Positions 6,585 through 39,549 of a stretch of 64,000 nt of DNA are shown here, one piece after another. Under the pieces are notes generated by a model. It did not search any database and was not told the origin of the DNA. It saw only the letters and a list, made by a program, of their open reading frames with translations. The position numbers and the translations under genes were made by a program. Each line of letters begins with the position of its first letter. Positions within the stretch are counted from its first letter, which is position 1. The DNA comes from Modestobacter sp. L9-4 (lineage in GTDB: Bacteria; Actinomycetota; Actinomycetes; Mycobacteriales; Geodermatophilaceae): assembly GCF_019112525.1 (NCBI RefSeq), contig NZ_CP077800.1, forward strand, positions 3,596,001 to 3,660,000, written 5' to 3'.

Positions 6585-6869
6585 ATGAGGCACCACAGCG
6601 GTTGTTGCGCCAGCGCCACCGGGCAGGACGGGACGAAGAAGCGCCCGGGCCCGGGTGAGCCGGCGATCGGCATGGCCGGACCGGTCAGCCAGACCATCGT
6701 GGAGTTCGCGGCCCGTACCCGGCACCAGGTGCACGGCGACCTGGTCGAGCGGCACGCCCGCGAGCTGCACTCCCGGTCCAGCTACGACTGCTGGAACGGC
6801 CTGTCCGACCGCGACCAGGAGCTGTGGCGGCACATGGCCCGCCTGGACCTGACCACCGGTCGCCCCTAG
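6585..6869 (+). CDS. Small hypothetical protein (94 aa)
   Basis: I do not recognise this protein. The ATG is preceded by GGAGG at a 5-base spacing, which supports translation from here. The N-terminal 30 residues are basic and low in complexity with a CC pair. The C-terminal part, about residues 30-94, is helical and charged, with His- and Arg-rich stretches and the segment SYDCWNGLSDRDQELWRHM. It is one of only three genes in the window that end in TAG, and that TAG lies in a CTAG palindrome shared with the stop of the convergent gene, so the two genes overlap by four bases. Confidence 0.6.
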   Translation: MRHHSGCCASATGQDGTKKRPGPGEPAIGMAGPVSQTIVEFAARTRHQVHGDLVERHARELHSRSSYDCWNGLSDRDQELWRHMARLDLTTGRP

Positions 6870-7420
6870 TCGGCGGCGGGGGGCTGGTGGAGCAGGGCAC
6901 TCAGACGCGCAGCCGCGTCGCCCAGCCCGTCCCGCAGCTCCTCGCCGTGGCCGCTCAGCCGGTCGAGCAGGCGGACGACGGTCGGGTCGGCCACCGCCAG
7001 GACGCCGAGCAGCACGTGCCCGCTGTCCAGCCGGCGTTCCCCCTGCCGCACCGCGGCCCGCAGCGACTCCTGCAGCACCCGCTTGCTGGCACTCGTGAAG
7101 GGCAGGTGGCCGCTGACCTCCTGCCGGCCGCGGTCGAGCGCGCCGGGCCCGAAGACGGCCTCGGCGGTGGCCCGCACCTGGTCCAGGTCCACGCCCACGG
7201 CGGCGAGCACGTCGGCGTCCAGGGCGCCCGGCTCCAGGGCCGTGCGCAGGCCCGCGTGGTCGACACCTGCCGCGGCCAGCGCCGTGCCGCCGCGTCCGGT
7301 GTCCCGGGTGAGCGCGAGCAGCAGGTGCACCGGCTCGATCTCCTCCGCGTGCAGCGTGCGGGCCTCCTCCTGCGCGCGGACGACGGCCTGCCGTGCCTCG
7401 TCGGTGAAGCGTTCGAACAC
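6866..7420 (-). CDS. Clp N-domain (Clp R repeat) protein without ATPase
   Basis: A 184-residue protein that carries a double Clp-N repeat like the substrate- and adaptor-binding N domain of ClpA/ClpC. Repeat 1 starts MFERFTDEARQAVVRAQEEA, with the AEEIEPVHLLLAL segment. Repeat 2 contains LPFTSASKRVLQESLRAA and DSGHVLLGVLAV. No AAA+ module follows, so it may bind or modulate a Clp protease instead of unfolding substrates (inference). The GTG start lies one base after the stop of the HTH gene, with GAAGGGA 8 bases upstream, so the two form an operon. It ends in TAG inside the shared CTAG. Confidence 0.85.
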   Translation of the reverse strand: MFERFTDEARQAVVRAQEEARTLHAEEIEPVHLLLALTRDTGRGGTALAAAGVDHAGLRTALEPGALDADVLAAVGVDLDQVRATAEAVFGPGALDRGRQEVSGHLPFTSASKRVLQESLRAAVRQGERRLDSGHVLLGVLAVADPTVVRLLDRLSGHGEELRDGLGDAAARLSALLHQPPAAD

Positions 7421-7421
7421 G

Positions 7422-7643
7422 TCAGCGGTCCCTTCGTGAGGTGGCGTGCTTCTTGTGGACGGCCTGCTTGCTGACCCCGAGGGCGTCGGCGATCTGCTGC
7501 CAGGACCAGCCGCGGGCCCGGGCGCTGCCGACCTGGAGGACCTCCAGGCGGTCGGCGAGGTCGCGGAGCGCGCGGACGGCCCGCAGCCCGGTGTCCGGGT
7601 CGTCGGCCGCCGCGGCGGTGGTGACGTCGGTCGGAGTGGCCAT
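7422..7643 (-). CDS. Small helix-turn-helix regulator of the Clp-N gene
   Basis: A 73-residue protein with a C-terminal helix-turn-helix (WSWQQIADALGVSKQAVHKKH) preceded by a helical segment. It is the first gene of a two-gene operon with the Clp-N protein, a pairing common in actinobacteria. The ATG has no Shine-Dalgarno sequence, but a perfect promoter ends six bases upstream, so the mRNA is probably leaderless. Two identical-arm palindromes overlap this promoter, which suggests that the protein represses its own operon (inference). Confidence 0.85.
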   Translation of the reverse strand: MATPTDVTTAAAADDPDTGLRAVRALRDLADRLEVLQVGSARARGWSWQQIADALGVSKQAVHKKHATSRRDR

Positions 7644-7646
7644 GTC

Positions 7647-7689
7647 GTCAACATAGGTTGACGCCACACCTCTGTCAACCCAGGTTGAC
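7647..7689 (-). promoter_or_regulatory. Promoter with two operator palindromes (HTH/Clp-N operon)
   Basis: GTCAAC-N4-GTTGAC occurs twice, at 7647-7662 and 7674-7689, with centres 27 bp apart. On the minus strand the second site contains part of -35 TTGACA (7673-7678) and the first contains -10 TATGTT (7650-7655), separated by exactly 17 bp. Binding at either site would block RNA polymerase. Confidence 0.85.
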
Positions 7690-7702
7690 GAGCGGCGTCC
7701 CG

Positions 7703-7708
7703 TACTCT
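7703..7708 (+). promoter_or_regulatory. -10 box of ndk (leaderless)
   Basis: TACTCT ends seven bases before the GTG start. No good -35 is seen; the operator sites of the divergent operon lie just upstream. Confidence 0.6.
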
Positions 7709-7715
7709 CCCCGGC

Positions 7716-8135
7716 GTGTCTGCACCCACTGCTGAGCGTTCGCTGGTCCTGGTCAAGCCCGACGGCGTGGCCCGCGGCCTGGTCGGCCAGGTCGTCGCCC
7801 GCCTCGAGGCCAAGGGCCTGCGCCTGGTCGCCGCCGAGCTGCGCACCCTGACCGTCGAGGTCGCCGAGGAGCACTACGGCGAGCACCGCGAGCGCCCGTT
7901 CTTCGGCTCGCTCGTCGAGTTCATCACCAGCGCCCCGCTGCTCGCCCTGGTCGTCGAGGGCCCCCGCGCCATCGAGGCGTTCCGCGCGCTCGCCGGCGCC
8001 ACCGACCCGGTCAAGGCCGCCCCCGGCACCATCCGCGGCGACTTCGCCCTCGAGGTGCAGTCCAACATCGTGCACGGCTCGGACTCGCCCGAGTCCGCCG
8101 CCCGCGAGATCGCGCTCTTCTTCCCCCAGCTCTGA
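7716..8135 (+). CDS. ndk: Nucleoside diphosphate kinase
   Basis: Transfers the gamma phosphate between nucleoside triphosphates and diphosphates through a phospho-histidine. The 139 residues contain the N-terminal VKPDG motif (13-17) and the active-site histidine H120 in NIVHGSDS, and have the standard family length. The GTG start has no ribosome binding site but has a -10 box seven bases upstream, which suggests a leaderless message. It is divergent from the HTH/Clp-N operon and lies in the conserved folC-ndk-rne neighbourhood. Confidence 0.97.
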
Positions 8136-30253: not shown

Positions 30254-32083
30254 GTGACGACTCCTGCCAGCACCGATCCCGCCCGGATCCGGAACTTCTG
30301 CATCATCGCCCACATCGACCACGGCAAGTCGACGCTGGCCGACCGGATGCTCGAGGTGACCGGCATCGTCGAGGGGCGCCAGATGCGCGCCCAGTACCTC
30401 GACCGGATGGACATCGAACGCGAGCGCGGCATCACCATCAAGTCGCAGAACGTGCGGCTGCCCTGGAGCGTCGGCGGCGAGGAGTTCGTCCTCGACATGA
30501 TCGACACCCCCGGGCACGTCGACTTCACCTACGAGGTGTCCCGCTCGCTGGCCGCCTGCGAGGGCGCCGTGCTGCTGGTCGACGCCGCGCAGGGCATCGA
30601 GGCCCAGACGCTGGCGAACCTGTACCTGGCGCTCGAGAACAACCTGACGATCATCCCGGTGCTCAACAAGATCGACCTGCCGGCCGCACAGCCGGAGAAG
30701 TTCGCCGCGGAGATCGCCAACATCATCGGCTGCGAGCCCGGCGACGTCCTGCGGGTCAGCGGCAAGACCGGCGTCGGCGTCCCGGAGCTGCTGGACCAGA
30801 TCGTGGCCAAGATCCCGGCCCCGGTGGGCGACGCCGACGGCCCGGCGCGGGCGATGATCTTCGACTCGGTCTACGACATCTACCGCGGCGTCATCACTTA
30901 CGTCCGGGTCATGGACGGCCGGATCAGCGGCCGCGACCGGATCAAGATGATGTCCACCGGCGCGAACCACGAGCTGCTGGAGATCGGCGTCATCTCCCCG
31001 GAGCCCAAGCCGGTCGAGGGGCTCGGGGTCGGCGAGGTCGGCTACTTCATCACCGGCGTGAAGGACGTCCGCCAGTCCCGCGTCGGTGACACCGTGACGC
31101 TGCAGCACAAGCCGGCCACCGAGCCGATCGGCGGCTACAGCGACCCCAAGCCGATGGTCTACTCCGGCCTCTACCCGATCGACGGCAGCGAGTACCAGCT
31201 GCTGCGCGAGGCGCTGGACAAGCTGCTGCTCAACGACGCCGCGCTGGTCTACGAGCCGGAGACCTCCGCCGCCCTGGGCTTCGGCTTCCGCGTGGGCTTC
31301 CTGGGCCTGCTGCACCTGGAGATCGTCCGGGAGCGGCTGGAGCGCGAGGCCGGGCTGAGCCTGATCTCCACCGCGCCCAACGTCGTCTACCGGGTGGTGA
31401 TGGAGGACAAGAGCGAGGTCGTCGTCACCAACCCCAGCGACTGGCCGCACGGCAAGATGGAGGCCGTCTACGAGCCGGTCGTGAACGCCACGATCATCGC
31501 CCCCAGCGACTACACCGGCGCGATCATGGAGCTCTGCCAGGGCCGCCGCGGCGCGCTGACCGGGATGGACTACCTGTCCGAGACCCGGGTCGAGCTGCGC
31601 TACACGCTGCCCCTGGGCGAGATCATCTTCGACTTCTTCGACGCACTGAAGTCCCGCACCCGCGGCTACGCGAGCCTGGACTACCAGGAGGCTGGCGAGC
31701 AGGTGTCCGACCTGGTGAAGGTGGACATCCTGCTGCAGGGCGAGGCCGTCGACGCGTTCTCCGCGATCGTGCACAAGGACAAGGCCTACAGCTACGGCGT
31801 GCTGATGGCCGGCAAGCTCCGCGAGCTCATCCCGCGCCAGCAGTTCGAGGTGCCGATCCAGGCCGCCGTCGGCGCCCGGGTGATCGCCCGCGAGACCGTC
31901 CGCGCGATCCGCAAGGACGTGCTGGCCAAGTGCTACGGCGGTGACATCACCCGCAAGCGCAAGCTGCTGGAGAAGCAGAAGGAGGGCAAGAAGCGGATGA
32001 AGATGGTCGGCCGCGTCGAGGTCCCCCAGGAGGCCTTCGTGGCCGCGCTCTCCACCAACGAGTCGACGGCGTCCAAGAAGTGA
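30254..32083 (+). CDS. lepA: Elongation factor 4 (back-translocase LepA)
   Basis: A translational GTPase acting on stalled or mis-translocated ribosomes. The 609 residues hold [12 protein letters not shown] (G1), DTPGHVDF (G3), NKID (G4), EF-G-like domains, and the LepA-specific C-terminal domain ending [17 protein letters not shown]. It is in the conserved holA-rpsT-lepA order. The GTG start lacks a clear ribosome binding site. The stop overlaps the next GTG as GTGA. Confidence 0.97.
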
Positions 32084-32733
32084 CCGGGCGGCTGGAGGCG
32101 GTCTGCGTCTCGGGGAGCGACCTCCTGCCGCTGCCGGACAAGCGCCCGAACCGCTCCGGCATCGACAAGCACCCGGTCACCGGACGGGTCGCCGTCCACC
32201 CGCTGGGCCTGGACGGCGACGTGCAGGTCAACAAGAAGCACCACGGCGGCGAGGGCCAGGCGGTCTACGCCTACGCCCAGGCCGACGCCGACTTCTGGGC
32301 GGGCGAGCTCGGCCGCGAGCTGCCGCCCGGCCGCTTCGGGGAGAACCTGCGCACGTCCGGGATCGACCTGAACGCCGCCGTCTTCGGCGAGCGCTGGCAG
32401 GTCGGGACCGCGCTGCTCGAGGTCACCGCCTGGCGTACCCCCTGCGCCAACTTCGCCCGCTTCTGGGACGTGCCGGACCTGGTCAAGCGCTTCGCCGCGC
32501 ACGGGGCGACCGGCGTGTACCTGCGGGTGCTGGAGACCGGCGAGCTCGGTGCCGGGGACGCCGTCGAGGTCGTCTCCCGACCCGACCACGGGATCACCGT
32601 GGCCACCGGCTTCCGGATCGTGATGACCCAGCGCGCGCGGCTGCCCGAGCTGGAGCCGGCGCTGCCGTTCATGCCGCTCAAGGACCAGCCGGTGCTCGCC
32701 GCCAAGATCGAGCGGCAGCGCGCCCGGGCGTAG
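32080..32733 (+). CDS. MOSC domain protein (YiiM-like)
   Basis: A 217-residue MOSC-fold protein that resembles the YiiM group, which handles molybdenum-cofactor-dependent reduction of N-hydroxylated compounds. The conserved cysteine is in [19 protein letters not shown], and [19 protein letters not shown] is the other hallmark. The start overlaps the lepA stop by four bases. It is one of the three genes here that end in TAG; no SECIS-like hairpin follows, so I read that TAG as a normal stop. It is convergent with the next gene across a one-base gap. Confidence 0.85.
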
Positions 32734-34514: not shown

Positions 34515-35516
<1,002 letters not shown>

Positions 35517-35528: not shown

Positions 35529-35685
35529 GGCCGCCTCCGCGCGCCCCGGCACGCGGGCGGGCGACCTCACCGCAGCGGCGGGACGGCGGTGCGCAGAACG
35601 GAACGCGAAGTCCACGGGAGGAGCGAACAGCGGTGACGGGAGGCGCGGAACGTCCGGGTCCCACCCACCTCCCGAGAGGACGGCC

Positions 35686-36291
35686 ATGGCCCGCGTCCCG
35701 CTCATCAACGCCACCGATCCCGGTGTCGACCCGACCGCGGCGGCGATCCTGACCGCCGCCGCCGAGCAGCCCAGCGGTGTGCTCAACGTGCACCGCGCAC
35801 TGGCGAACCACCCGCAGATCATGGAGCGCTTCTTCGGCCTGGCCGAGGTCGCCTACTTCGACAACTCGATCGGCCCGGCCCGCAGCGAGCTCGCCTACCT
35901 CACGGCGGCGATGCAGAACGACTGCCACTACTAGACCCCCACTCACGTGGTGCTCGGTCGGAGCGCCGGATTGAGTGACGAGCAGATGGCCCACCTCCTC
36001 GACGACCCCCTCCCGGAGGGCCTGTACGCCCCGGACGAGGCCGCGATCATCCGGTTCAGTCGCCTGTCGACGAAGATGGAGCCGATCGACAACCGGACCT
36101 GGGCCGACCTGACGGCCCACTTCGACACCCGGGCGATCATGGAGATCGTCTTCATCGTCGGGATGGACCAGGTCATCAGCCGGATGCACGCCGCGCTGCG
36201 CACGGACCTGGACGGGGTGACCAGCGACGAGATCGGCGACACCTGCGCCGTGCCGATGCCGCAGCTGGCGCCGGAGGGGTCGATGAGCTGA
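35686..36291 (+). CDS. AhpD/CMD-like selenoprotein, Sec encoded by in-frame UAG
   Basis: A carboxymuconolactone-decarboxylase-fold protein (AhpD-like thiol peroxidase family). Conventional reading gives an 82-residue fragment stopped by TAG at 35932-35934 and a second open piece in the same frame, to a TGA at 36289. Read through, the 201-residue product has NDC80-HY-X83-TPT-H87, where X is the TAG: this is the CxxC-xxx-H site of AhpD, with the TAG at the second, reactive cysteine. A SECIS-like hairpin follows, and a tRNA-Sec with anticodon CUA lies 55 bases downstream. I conclude that residue 83 is selenocysteine. AGAGGA before the ATG is the ribosome binding site. The electron donor and substrate are unknown. 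Confidence 0.93.
35932..35934 (+). other. In-frame UAG read as selenocysteine
   Basis: Codon 83 of the AhpD-like gene, at the fourth position of CxxC. It is matched by the CUA anticodon at 36382-36384. Confidence 0.92.
35940..35977 (+). promoter_or_regulatory. Bacterial-type SECIS element
   Basis: The lower stem pairs CACTCA (35940-35945) with TGAGTG (35972-35977). The upper 7-bp stem pairs 35949-35955 with 35961-35967 (one G-T), with apical loop GGTCG. The upper stem begins 14 bases after the UAG. The loop resembles the GGUC loop of the E. coli fdhF SECIS, where the G and U contact SelB. The same bases encode the conserved family segment LGRSAG. Confidence 0.85.
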
Positions 36292-36298
36292 GCCCGCG

Positions 36299-36330
36299 CC
36301 GGTCCCGGCCGGGCAGCCGGCCGGGACCGG
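36299..36330 (+). terminator. Terminator between selenoprotein gene and tRNA-Sec
   Basis: Perfect 14-bp stem (36299-36312 with 36317-36330) and 4-base loop. Confidence 0.85.
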
Positions 36331-36346: not shown

Positions 36347-36442
36347 GGAGGCGTCAGGGTGTCTGGTGGCCCCCGCGGCCTCTAAAGCCGACGTGATCGA
36401 GCATCTCGGTCAGGCGGGTTCGATTCCCGTCCGCCTCCGCCA
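36347..36442 (+). tRNA. selC: tRNA-Sec with anticodon CUA (decodes UAG)
   Basis: A 96-base tRNA with encoded CCA and discriminator G. The acceptor GGAGGCG pairs with CGCCTCC, and the T arm has loop TTCGATT. The long variable arm has about 8 bp (TGATCGAG with CTCGGTCA around CAT), as expected of tRNA-Sec. The anticodon stem CGGC/GCCG closes the 7-base loop CTCTAAA at 36380-36386, so the anticodon is CTA at 36382-36384. The usual tRNA-Sec loop is CTTCAAA with anticodon TCA. It lies between the UAG-containing gene and selA-selB. Confidence 0.96.
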
Positions 36443-36502: not shown

Positions 36503-37813
36503 ATGACCGGAGACCCCCGCCGCGCCGTACCCCGCACCGACGCCGTGCTGGCCGAGCCGCCGGTCGCCGCCGCCGTCGAGCGGCTGGGCCGCGAGCTGGT
36601 CAAGGCCCTCGTGCAGACCGCGCAGCAGCAGGTCCGCGCCGGTGAGCTCACCCCGGACGGCGTCGTCCCGGCCGTGCTCGCCGCCCTGCCCGGCACCGCC
36701 GGCAGCCTGTCGCCGGTGCTCAACGCGACCGGCGTGCTGGTGCACACCAACCTCGGTCGCGCCCCCTGGTCGGCCGCCGCCGTCGAGGCGGTCGTCGCGG
36801 CCAGCGGCACCACCGACGTCGAGCTCGACCTGGGCACCGGGCGCCGCGGGCCTCGCGGCGAGGGCGCGCTGGGCGCGCTGCTGGAGGCGGTCCCGGCCGC
36901 CGAGGCCGCGCTCGTGGTCAACAACTGCGCGGCCGCCCTCGCCCTGGTCGCCACCGCGCTGGGCGGGGAACTGGTCATCGCCCGCGGCGAGCTGGTCGAG
37001 ATCGGCGACGGGTTCCGCATCCCCGACCTGCTGGTGTCCACCGGTGCCCGGCTGCACGAGGTCGGGACGACGAACCGCGCCTCGGTCGCCGACTACACCG
37101 CGGCCCTGGGCCCGGACACCGGCGCGGTGCTCAAGGTGCACCCGTCGAACTTCGTCGTCCGCGGCTTCACCCGCTCGGTCGAGGTCGCCGAGCTGGCCCC
37201 GGCGCTGGCCGGCACGGGTGTCCCGCTGGTCGCCGACGTGGGCAGCGGGCTGCTGCGCCCGCACCCGCTGCTGCCCGACGAGCCCGACCTGCAGACGACG
37301 CTGGCCGCCGGCGCGGACCTGGTGATGTGCAGCGGGGACAAGCTGCTCGGCGGGCCACAGGCCGGCATCGTGCTCGGCCGCGCCGACCTGGTGCAGCGGC
37401 TGCGCTGGCACCCGCTCTACCGGGCACTGCGGGTGGACAAGACGACGCTCGCCGCCCTCGAGGCCACGCTGCGCGGCCCGGTCCCGCCGGTGCGCCAGAT
37501 GCTGGACGCCGACCCGGCGCAGCTGCACGCCCGGGCCACCGCGGTCGCCGAGGCGCTGCGGGCCGGCGGGGTGGAGGCGGTCGCGGTCGAGGCCACGGCC
37601 CGGGTCGGCGGAGGAGGGGCGCCGGAGTTCGAGCTGCCCAGCGCCGCCGTCGCCCTCGACGTCCGGTTCGCCGAGCCGCTGCGGGCGGCCACCCCGCCGG
37701 TGGTCGGCTACCTGGAGAGCGGCCGCACCCTGCTCGACGTGCGCAGCCTGCAGCCCGCCCAGGACGCCGAGCTCACCCGCGTCGTGCTGGAGGTGGCGGC
37801 CGCGTGGACGTGA
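36503..37813 (+). CDS. selA: L-seryl-tRNA(Sec) selenium transferase SelA
   Basis: A PLP enzyme that converts Ser-tRNA(Sec) to Sec-tRNA(Sec) with selenophosphate. The PLP lysine is K280 in CSGDKLLGGPQAG. LNATGVLVHTNLGRAPW, VNNCAAALAL, RGELVEIGDGFRIPD and VHPSNFVVRGF are family segments. The 436 residues are slightly shorter than in E. coli. It is read 60 bases after the tRNA-Sec gene and overlaps selB by 10 bases. SelA recognises the body of its tRNA, so a changed anticodon need not affect it (known for the family). Confidence 0.97.
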   Translation: MTGDPRRAVPRTDAVLAEPPVAAAVERLGRELVKALVQTAQQQVRAGELTPDGVVPAVLAALPGTAGSLSPVLNATGVLVHTNLGRAPWSAAAVEAVVAASGTTDVELDLGTGRRGPRGEGALGALLEAVPAAEAALVVNNCAAALALVATALGGELVIARGELVEIGDGFRIPDLLVSTGARLHEVGTTNRASVADYTAALGPDTGAVLKVHPSNFVVRGFTRSVEVAELAPALAGTGVPLVADVGSGLLRPHPLLPDEPDLQTTLAAGADLVMCSGDKLLGGPQAGIVLGRADLVQRLRWHPLYRALRVDKTTLAALEATLRGPVPPVRQMLDADPAQLHARATAVAEALRAGGVEAVAVEATARVGGGGAPEFELPSAAVALDVRFAEPLRAATPPVVGYLESGRTLLDVRSLQPAQDAELTRVVLEVAAAWT

Positions 37814-39549
37814 TCGCCACCGCCGGGCACGTCGACCACGGCAAGTCGACGCTGGTCCGCGCGCTCACCGGCATGGAGCCCGACCGGTGGGAGGAGGAGC
37901 GCCGTCGCGGCCTCACCATCGACCTCGGTTTCGCCTGGACGACGCTTGCCTCCGGCCGCCGCCTGGCCGTGGTCGACGTCCCCGGGCACGAGCGCTTCGT
38001 GGGCAACATGCTCGCCGGCGTCGGTTCGGTGCCGGCCGCCCTCGTCGTGGTCGCCGCCGACGACGGCTGGTCGGCGCAGACCGCCGAGCACGTCGCGGTG
38101 CTGGACGCCCTCGGGGTGCGGCACGGGCTGCTCGCGGTCACCAAGTCCGACCTCGCCGACCCCGCGCCCGTGCTCGCCGACGCCGGCGAGCGGCTGGCCG
38201 GGACGTCGCTGGGCCGGCTGTCCGCGGTCGCGGTCAGCGCCCGCACCGGTGCCGGACTGCCGGAGCTGTCGGCGCTGCTGGAGCAGGTGCTCGCCGACCT
38301 GCCCGCCCCGGACCGGGCCGCGCCGGTGCGGCTGTGGGTCGACCGCGCGTTCACCATCCGGGGCGCCGGCACCGTCGTCACCGGCACGCTGGCCGCCGGG
38401 ACCGTGGCCGCCGGTGACCGGCTGGACCTCGGCGGGGAGCTCGTGACCGTCCGCGGCCTGCAGTCCCTCGGCGAGCCGGTCGAGTCGGCGGCCGCGACCG
38501 CCCGGGTGGCGCTCAACCTGCGCGGCATCGCCGTCGAGCAGCTGTCCCGGGGCGACGCGCTGCTGACCCCGGACGCCTTCCGCCGCACCACCGACCTCGA
38601 CGTCTCCCTGGTCACGCCGGTGGAGGACAGGCTGCCGGCCGAGCTGGTCGTGCACATCGGCTCGGCGACGGTGGCCGCCCGCGTCCGCCCGCTGGACGGC
38701 AGCGCCCTGCGGCTGCGGCTGACCGAGCCCCTGCCGCTGCGGGTCGGCGACCGGCTGCTGCTGCGCGACCCCGGCGCCCGCCGCGCGTTCGGTGCCGACG
38801 TGCGGGACGTCGACCCGCCCGAGCTGCGCCGCCGTGGTGCCGCCGCCAGCCGTGCGGCCGAGCTGGCCGAGCAGCCGACCGGTGAGGCCGGGGCGCTGGC
38901 GGACCTGGCGCGGCGGCGGTTCGTGCGCCGCGCGGACTTCGTCGCGATGGGCTGGCCGGTGCCTGCCGGGGTGCCCGCGGTCGGGCCGTGGCTGGTCGCG
39001 CCCGCGCTGGCGGACGAGCTGGCCGCGCGGGTGCCGCAGGTGGTCGCCCGCTACCGGCAGCTGCGCCCGCTGGAGCCCGGCCCGCCGGTGGCCGTGCTGC
39101 GCTCGGCGCTGGAGCTTCCCGACGTCGAGCTGGTGCCGGCGTTCGTGCGCCCGCCGTTGTCGCTGCGTGACGGCCGGGTGGTCGCCGAGTCAGCCGCCCT
39201 GCCGCCGGAGGTGCAGCGCGCGGTCGACGGCATCCGCGCCCGGCTGGCCGAGTCGCCGTTCGCCGCACCCGAGGCCGGTGACCTGGTGGCCGCCGGGCTC
39301 GGCGCGCGCGAGCTCGCCGCAGCCGTGCGGGACGAACAGCTGGTGCGGATCAGCGACGGCATCTACCTGGCGCCGGGTGTCGCCGAGGTGGCCCGGGTCC
39401 GGCTGGCCGCGCTGCCGCAGCCGTTCACGCTGAGCCAGGCCAGGCAGGCCTGGGGCACCAGCCGCCGCGTTGCCGTCCCGCTGGCCGAGTGGCTCGACGC
39501 CCGCGGCGTCACCGTGCGCCAGCCGGACAACACCCGCCGCCTGCGCTGA
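37804..39549 (+). CDS. selB: Selenocysteine-specific elongation factor SelB
   Basis: An EF-Tu-like GTPase that carries Sec-tRNA(Sec) and binds the SECIS hairpin through its C-terminal winged helices. TAGHVDHGKSTLVRALTG (G1), DVPGHERFV (G3) and TKSD (G4) are present, followed by beta-barrel domains and winged-helix repeats (about residues 370-581). At 581 residues it is of normal length. The GTG start overlaps selA, with GGAGG 10 bases upstream; a second GTG at 37810 is possible. Since decoding is by the tRNA, SelB can serve UAG without changes to its G domain. Confidence 0.97.
   Translation: MDVIATAGHVDHGKSTLVRALTGMEPDRWEEERRRGLTIDLGFAWTTLASGRRLAVVDVPGHERFVGNMLAGVGSVPAALVVVAADDGWSAQTAEHVAVLDALGVRHGLLAVTKSDLADPAPVLADAGERLAGTSLGRLSAVAVSARTGAGLPELSALLEQVLADLPAPDRAAPVRLWVDRAFTIRGAGTVVTGTLAAGTVAAGDRLDLGGELVTVRGLQSLGEPVESAAATARVALNLRGIAVEQLSRGDALLTPDAFRRTTDLDVSLVTPVEDRLPAELVVHIGSATVAARVRPLDGSALRLRLTEPLPLRVGDRLLLRDPGARRAFGADVRDVDPPELRRRGAAASRAAELAEQPTGEAGALADLARRRFVRRADFVAMGWPVPAGVPAVGPWLVAPALADELAARVPQVVARYRQLRPLEPGPPVAVLRSALELPDVELVPAFVRPPLSLRDGRVVAESAALPPEVQRAVDGIRARLAESPFAAPEAGDLVAAGLGARELAAAVRDEQLVRISDGIYLAPGVAEVARVRLAALPQPFTLSQARQAWGTSRRVAVPLAEWLDARGVTVRQPDNTRRLR

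Follow-up and report, generated by a model that had tools for sequence, protein, structure and literature searches.

Selenocysteine (Sec) encoded by UAG in the Geodermatophilaceae was reportedly first described by Mukai et al. in 2016. Citing its reference 56, PMC5330540 gives an account of three genomes of this family with a tRNASec carrying the anticodon CUA, together with formate dehydrogenases and UGSC-motif proteins; it also includes an AhpC of Blastococcus saxobsidens DD2 whose Sec is encoded by TAG. AhpD-like selenoproteins with a CxxU site have also been described, with UGA as the Sec codon (PMC1088965, PMC2398784, PMC13188914). Among AhpD proteins that contain two Cys and no Sec, PA0269 of Pseudomonas aeruginosa has a proton relay made up of Glu36, Cys48, Tyr50, Cys51, and His55, as set out in PMC3141380; the same paper names both cysteines of AhpD as catalytic, and the CxxC site with a relay Glu and His that it treats is also that of Mycobacterium tuberculosis AhpD (PDB 1knc), likewise without Sec.

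The window analyzed here is a stretch of 64,000 nucleotides from Modestobacter sp. L9-4. It resembles the systems of PMC5330540 in belonging to the same family, in its tRNASec-CUA, in a TAG at a Sec site, and in a formate dehydrogenase with TAG elsewhere in the genome. It differs from the set given in section 17 of that paper in that the gene with the TAG in the window codes for an AhpD-like protein, which is not named in that section. From the UGA-encoded AhpD-like proteins, which share its CMD/AhpD-like character and the placement of Sec at the second CxxC position, it differs in having UAG as the codon. The combination of an AhpD-like selenoprotein with UAG was not found in the open-licence literature searched. 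UAG-encoded Sec, a rare code, is already known in the Geodermatophilaceae; its use in an AhpD-like gene appears to be new, which adds this enzyme to a short list of genes. We propose that it very probably encodes a selenoprotein, the in-frame UAG of which would be read as Sec by the adjoining tRNASec-CUA. The earlier note on this DNA had suggested as much, and its suggestion gains support from the CUA tRNASec, from selA, selB, and selD, from a SECIS-like hairpin, from orthologs with TGA at the same codon, and from Cys at this column in 11 of 31 distant homologs. The features are listed in Table 1.

Table 1. Features of the selenocysteine locus as read from the DNA of the window
Feature	Position in window	Strand	Basis or details
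selD, selenide water dikinase, own reactive site Cys (HGGGCACK)	34515..35516	-	TIGR00476, 382.7 bits (cut-off 125)
AhpD-like (CMD fold) gene, predicted selenoprotein	35686..36291	+	ORF with one in-frame TAG, 201 residues
Active-site motif C80-H-Y-U83-T-P-T-H87	35923..35946	+	Spacing as in the AhpD proton relay of PMC3141380
TAG, codon 83, predicted Sec codon	35932..35934	+	TAG or TGA there in 16/16 orthologous genes
SECIS-like hairpin	35940..35977	+	Upper stem 35948-35955 with 35961-35968, loop GGUCG 35956-35960
tRNASec (selC), anticodon CUA at 36382-36384	36347..36442	+	ARAGORN; Rfam tRNA-Sec, 64.6 bits
selA, L-seryl-tRNASec selenium transferase	36503..37813	+	TIGR00474, 411.9 bits (cut-off 267.9)
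selB, selenocysteine-specific elongation factor	37810..39549	+	TIGR00475, 284 bits (cut-off 242.25)

Two pieces in the same frame, divided by a single TAG, had been described at this position in the earlier note, together with a read-through site C80-H-Y-X83-T-P-T-H87 in which X takes the place of the second cysteine of CxxCxxxH; our coordinates and translation agree with both statements. From its ATG the AhpD-like gene runs open for 82 amino acids up to the TAG, resumes in frame after it with X at residue 83, and ends at a TGA (36289-36291); with Cys at residue 83 the computed mass is 21.7 kDa. The Pfam model CMD (PF02627) bridges both pieces, covering residues 43-106 with 40.6 bits (cut-off 23). 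Five NCBIfam models also match, all below their curated cut-offs: TIGR01926 (34.5 bits, cut-off 81.8), NF053654 (30.8, cut-off 310), NF041238 (29.6, cut-off 175), TIGR00778 (23.2, cut-off 27.8), and TIGR04030 (22.2, cut-off 233). The GC content at third codon positions (GC3) is 0.95, similar to that of the neighboring genes; over all positions it is 0.688, below the values of selA (0.78) and selB (0.785).

All five relay residues are present in the AhpD-like protein with AhpD spacing, namely, E68, C80, Y82, U83 in place of Cys, and H87; the pattern E-(12)-C-x-Y-C-x3-H is equally spaced in PA0269. In a 16-row alignment the complete set is kept in 14 of 14 orthologs, as it is in the gene of genome G715, which belongs to another family of the order, and is incomplete in the two distant rows of that alignment (P0048 and P0050). 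The earlier assignment of the UAG to the peroxidatic cysteine can be retained in part: the codon does occupy the second CxxC position, but PMC3141380 calls both cysteines catalytic, and "peroxidatic" is at most a tentative label for the second. A predicted model of the protein (mean pLDDT of 76.2) adopts the all-helical AhpD-like fold. A structure search of the PDB with this model ranked the P. aeruginosa AhpD/PA0269 entries first (2ijc, 2o4d, and 7xw1); the best match, 7xw1, gave a TM score of 0.87 by target length and was alone below an E value of 0.001. The matched chains are shorter, at 133-145 residues compared with 201, and are 20-22% identical in the structural alignments. M. tuberculosis AhpD (1knc) is a weak structural match (E of 1.2, TM of 0.45-0.52).

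Given these residues, a Sec83 selenolate might attack a peroxide or a similar electrophile, Cys80 might resolve it as a selenenylsulfide, E68, Y82, and H87 would relay protons, and a cellular thiol system would then reset the enzyme. The DNA itself shows the gene, its in-frame codon, the tRNA, the Sel genes, the hairpin, and the agreement of codon with anticodon; that the product contains selenium is predicted from these, as are its activity, reductant, and substrate. We consider it somewhat unlikely that the UAG is read as Sec and the enzyme serves mainly as a selenol-thiol oxidoreductase for some other electrophile, for example in dehalogenation or in a step of selenium metabolism linked with the sel locus. 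The AhpD-like fold spans other chemistries, the debrominase Bmp8 being among the structural matches of the model, and the gene lies within the sel locus both here and in genomes G504, G505, and G512, where it is found between selC and selA. The full AhpD proton-relay set speaks against such a reading, however, as do the five other UAG-containing AhpD-like genes, which lie away from the sel locus as far as the examined stretches show.

A protein search returned 50 hits, of which one was the window's own tail, four were distant, and 45 were other homologs. Automatic annotation had been expected to split such a gene or call it a pseudogene, and the database entries bear out the splitting: 44 of the 45 consist only of the piece after the stop, so that genes of this kind are hidden by annotation. 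The remaining one, P0003, is the only full-length close homolog in the protein search and has Trp at the Sec column (CHYWVPTH), which could be a TGA translated with another code. No close version with Cys was found among the 50 hits. A tblastn search of 51 loci yielded 41 rows. Ten of them, which represent nine genes because one was seen twice, have a stop in this position; the remaining 31 are distant. Cysteine at this column in homologs, which the earlier note had named as a check, was seen in the CxxC of 11 of the 31 distant rows, but the other 20 have neither Cys nor a stop. Close homologs had also been flagged as a possible source of an unrelated residue; the stop is present in every orthologous gene checked by residue, with P0003 and its Trp standing against this.

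The genes so checked number 16 (15 aligned rows plus the gene at locus L264), and at the position of codon 83 nine have TAG and seven, from six genomes, have TGA. The stop codon agrees with the anticodon of the host tRNASec. All nine hosts of TAG genes have CUA, and the four typed hosts of TGA genes (G121, G132, G229, and G271) all have UCA; G715 and the record of row L006 are outside this count. Within the Geodermatophilaceae, 108 of 112 genomes could be typed (G002, G016, G514, and G516 are not counted): the anticodon is CUA in 101 genomes, every typed member of nine genera, and UCA in 7, every typed member of three other genera. With both anticodons in one family, the spread of an alternative Sec codon becomes testable.

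Matches to the AhpD-like protein at an E value of 1e-20 or better were obtained in 9 of the 112 Geodermatophilaceae genomes, each with one inner TAG. At the same threshold an order-level search gave 7 of 397 genomes, six of them Geodermatophilaceae and the seventh G715, whose gene has TGA and the highest identity listed (62%), although its bit score is a little below that of two UAG genes. A phylum sample matched in 18 of 396 genomes at 1e-10; close relatives were present in the window's own genome and in four others, and those four all have TGA. In the family of G132, 5 of 39 genomes matched at 1e-20, all with TGA; G814 gave only a partial match, with its TGA presumably at the site. A relative with TGA is also present in an alphaproteobacterial metagenome assembly, and one scan of genome contigs found a single relative. 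Two genomes have a second AhpD-like copy with an inner TGA: in G132 (L053, C1:2705566-2705985) the N-terminal frame of this copy is disturbed, and in G229 (L054, C147:6733-7239) the copy lies just before the main gene.

These comparisons bear on two readings in which no Sec is inserted. A recent nonsense mutation that has left a pseudogene would fit with the two short frames of the standard code and with the absence of the gene from the same place in sister species. We regard this as very improbable: every one of the 16 orthologous genes checked has its stop at this codon, TAG or TGA in line with the host wherever this was typed; both halves align along their whole length; and the GC3 value noted above also speaks against it. 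The same low standing goes to the idea of two separate short genes, an 82-residue protein followed by a 114-residue protein from GTG 35947: both frames exist and databases list such tails, yet a single Pfam domain extends across the stop, which has relay residues before and after it, and the codon itself is conserved.

The decisive neighbor of the AhpD-like gene, to which the earlier note makes no reference, is the CUA tRNASec, which starts 55 bases 3' of it in a locus with the order selD, AhpD-like gene, selC, selA, selB. The Rfam tRNA-Sec model covers this tRNA from end to end and scores above its gathering score of 47 bits. The genome, a single contig of 4.22 Mb, contains no other tRNASec; four weaker matches to the model are three tRNA-Ser and one tRNA-Tyr. 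Compared with the UCA tRNASec of the three sister genera, it is equal at 80-87 of 96 aligned positions. The top-ranked named relatives of SelB are Modestobacter proteins (88-90% identity). Reading of the UAG as pyrrolysine, which might be suggested by the label Pyl that ARAGORN gives this tRNA because its anticodon is CUA, is extremely improbable in the face of the covariance-model assignment over the whole length, the resemblance to UCA tRNASec noted above, the flanking selA, selB, and selD, and the TGA in orthologs.

Two further observations were made on tRNASec in these genomes. Between UCA and CUA forms (L061 and others compared with L001), a base pair of the anticodon stem is altered on both sides. 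Genome G506 has two tRNASec, one with CUA (L090:1169-1263 on C17) and one with UCA (L091:7833-7928 on C11); the ORFs around the latter look transposase-like by eye, and no sel genes are listed in 8 kb. The UCA tRNASec of G506 is either an acquired copy or a contaminant contig.

Directly after the TAG, the mRNA can fold into the SECIS-like hairpin of Table 1. Taken alone in the window, this hairpin is only moderately stable compared with shuffled sequences (-22.3 kcal/mol, z score of -1.61, 14 of 200 shuffles as good). In each of the 15 aligned orthologous rows the loop opens with GGUC at a distance of exactly 21 nt from the codon, and at L264, outside these rows, GGTC is found at the same distance. 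The stem has 8 pairs in 14 rows and 7 pairs in row L006, with loops of four or five bases. All 14 rows counted use GGT for the glycine of the loop, compared with 10 of 141 other glycines in the same genes, which points to constraint on silent sites; the partial row L053, itself also GGT, was left out of this count. When silent variants were generated (5,000 trials per row), 0.8-6.3% reached the observed stem at the same place and 3-19% reached it at any place; these are per-row values that cannot be multiplied, because the rows are related. RNAalifold found no consensus structure in a gapless alignment of the 15 rows, probably because the four- and five-base loops shift the register.

We also asked how often such an arrangement occurs in the window, defining it as a GGUC-loop hairpin, with a stem of 7 pairs or more, 14-27 bases after a trinucleotide on either strand. 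Hairpins of this type follow 2 of 244 TAG, 1 of 1,039 TGA, and 0 of 11 TAA. Among the trinucleotides that bear them, the TAG of codon 83 is the only one flanked in each direction by 50 or more open codons. The codon-83 TAG together with its hairpin is more than chance would give. Natural UGA and UAG versions of the gene have the same hairpin, and whether SelB and the SECIS element are indifferent to the codon is thus directly testable.

RF1 is present in the genome (470.6 bits, cut-off 423.25), and of 46 ORFs in the window found with a crude ORF caller, 43 end in TGA and 3 in TAG. Two of the TAG-ending ORFs have Pfam matches, a MOSC-domain gene (32080-32733) and a Clp_N gene (6866-7846); the third has no match. 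The MOSC-domain and Clp_N genes, together with RF1, indicate that UAG probably still serves as a stop in this genome, and reading it as Sec would therefore be context dependent. In the mechanism that we favor for the AhpD-like gene, SelA and SelD would make Sec on tRNASec-CUA, SelB would carry the Sec-tRNA to the ribosome and bind the hairpin just after the UAG, and Sec would outcompete RF1 at codon 83, while UAG elsewhere would still end genes.

The history of the AhpD-like gene was examined with a tree of the C-terminal part (60 rows, 119 columns). A branch with support of 100/100 parts 17 rows from 43. The smaller group holds the gene of the window, three further UAG genes (G504, G505, and G512), one UGA gene (G715), and tails whose codon is unknown; the larger holds the remaining five UAG genes, UGA genes (the alphaproteobacterial one and four from actinobacteria), and further tails. 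Since UAG and UGA copies occur on both sides of this deep split, the UAG copies do not share a single clade, and which codon a copy has follows the tRNA of its host. A tree of 17 full-length rows left 9 of 14 inner branches open and did not recover the deep split.

At the level of the locus, seven near-relative loci were compared. Four of them (L097, L098, L177, and L180, from G010, G013, G006, and G011) align on both flanks but lack some 760 bases (35549-36309) that lie between selD and selC in the window; the other three align on the selC side only. SelD of G010 and G013 is 98% identical. The absence of the AhpD-like gene in these relatives reflects either gain in the window's genome or loss there. 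A tentative proposal, which we find plausible without holding it to be probable, is that on two or more occasions the AhpD-like family passed into the UAG-Sec lineage by a change of stop codon, with the codon matching the host tRNASec and the hairpin left intact, one branch retaining the gene as a cassette in the sel locus; selenoprotein genes might cross the border between UGA-Sec and UAG-Sec in this way. At L097 (G010, C8:528000-540000) selD adjoins selC, and no selA or selB was found within the 12 kb, unlike the other sel loci compared.

UAG at a Sec site is also found in other genes. In a formate dehydrogenase of the same genome the Sec site (NQARI-U-HSSTVPG) is likewise a TAG, and a GGUC hairpin lies 18 nt beyond it. 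Among formate dehydrogenase rows matching at 1e-50 or better, 24 from the Geodermatophilaceae, the window's own genome included, have one TAG each; in other families of the order, one TGA is present in G036, G038, and G047, and no inner stop in G039 and G041. Checks of the Sec site covered five rows of this type (three TAG, two TGA) and three of another type, all TGA. No member of the UGSC family was found in the window's own genome. Sixteen rows of this family from elsewhere comprise seven with one TAG, one with one TGA (G036, of another family), and eight without an inner stop; UGSC genes were seen in G003, G007, G008, G015, and G018, the last four of which have TAG and stop-free copies together. 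Five matches to the AhpC-TSA family were found in the window's own genome, none with an inner stop. Genome G459 has an AhpC-TSA-type gene with a TAG directly before PYCC (L260:859-861; C1, about 130358), which is probably the published UAG-Sec AhpC of B. saxobsidens DD2; separately, G459 carries an AhpD-like gene with TAG.
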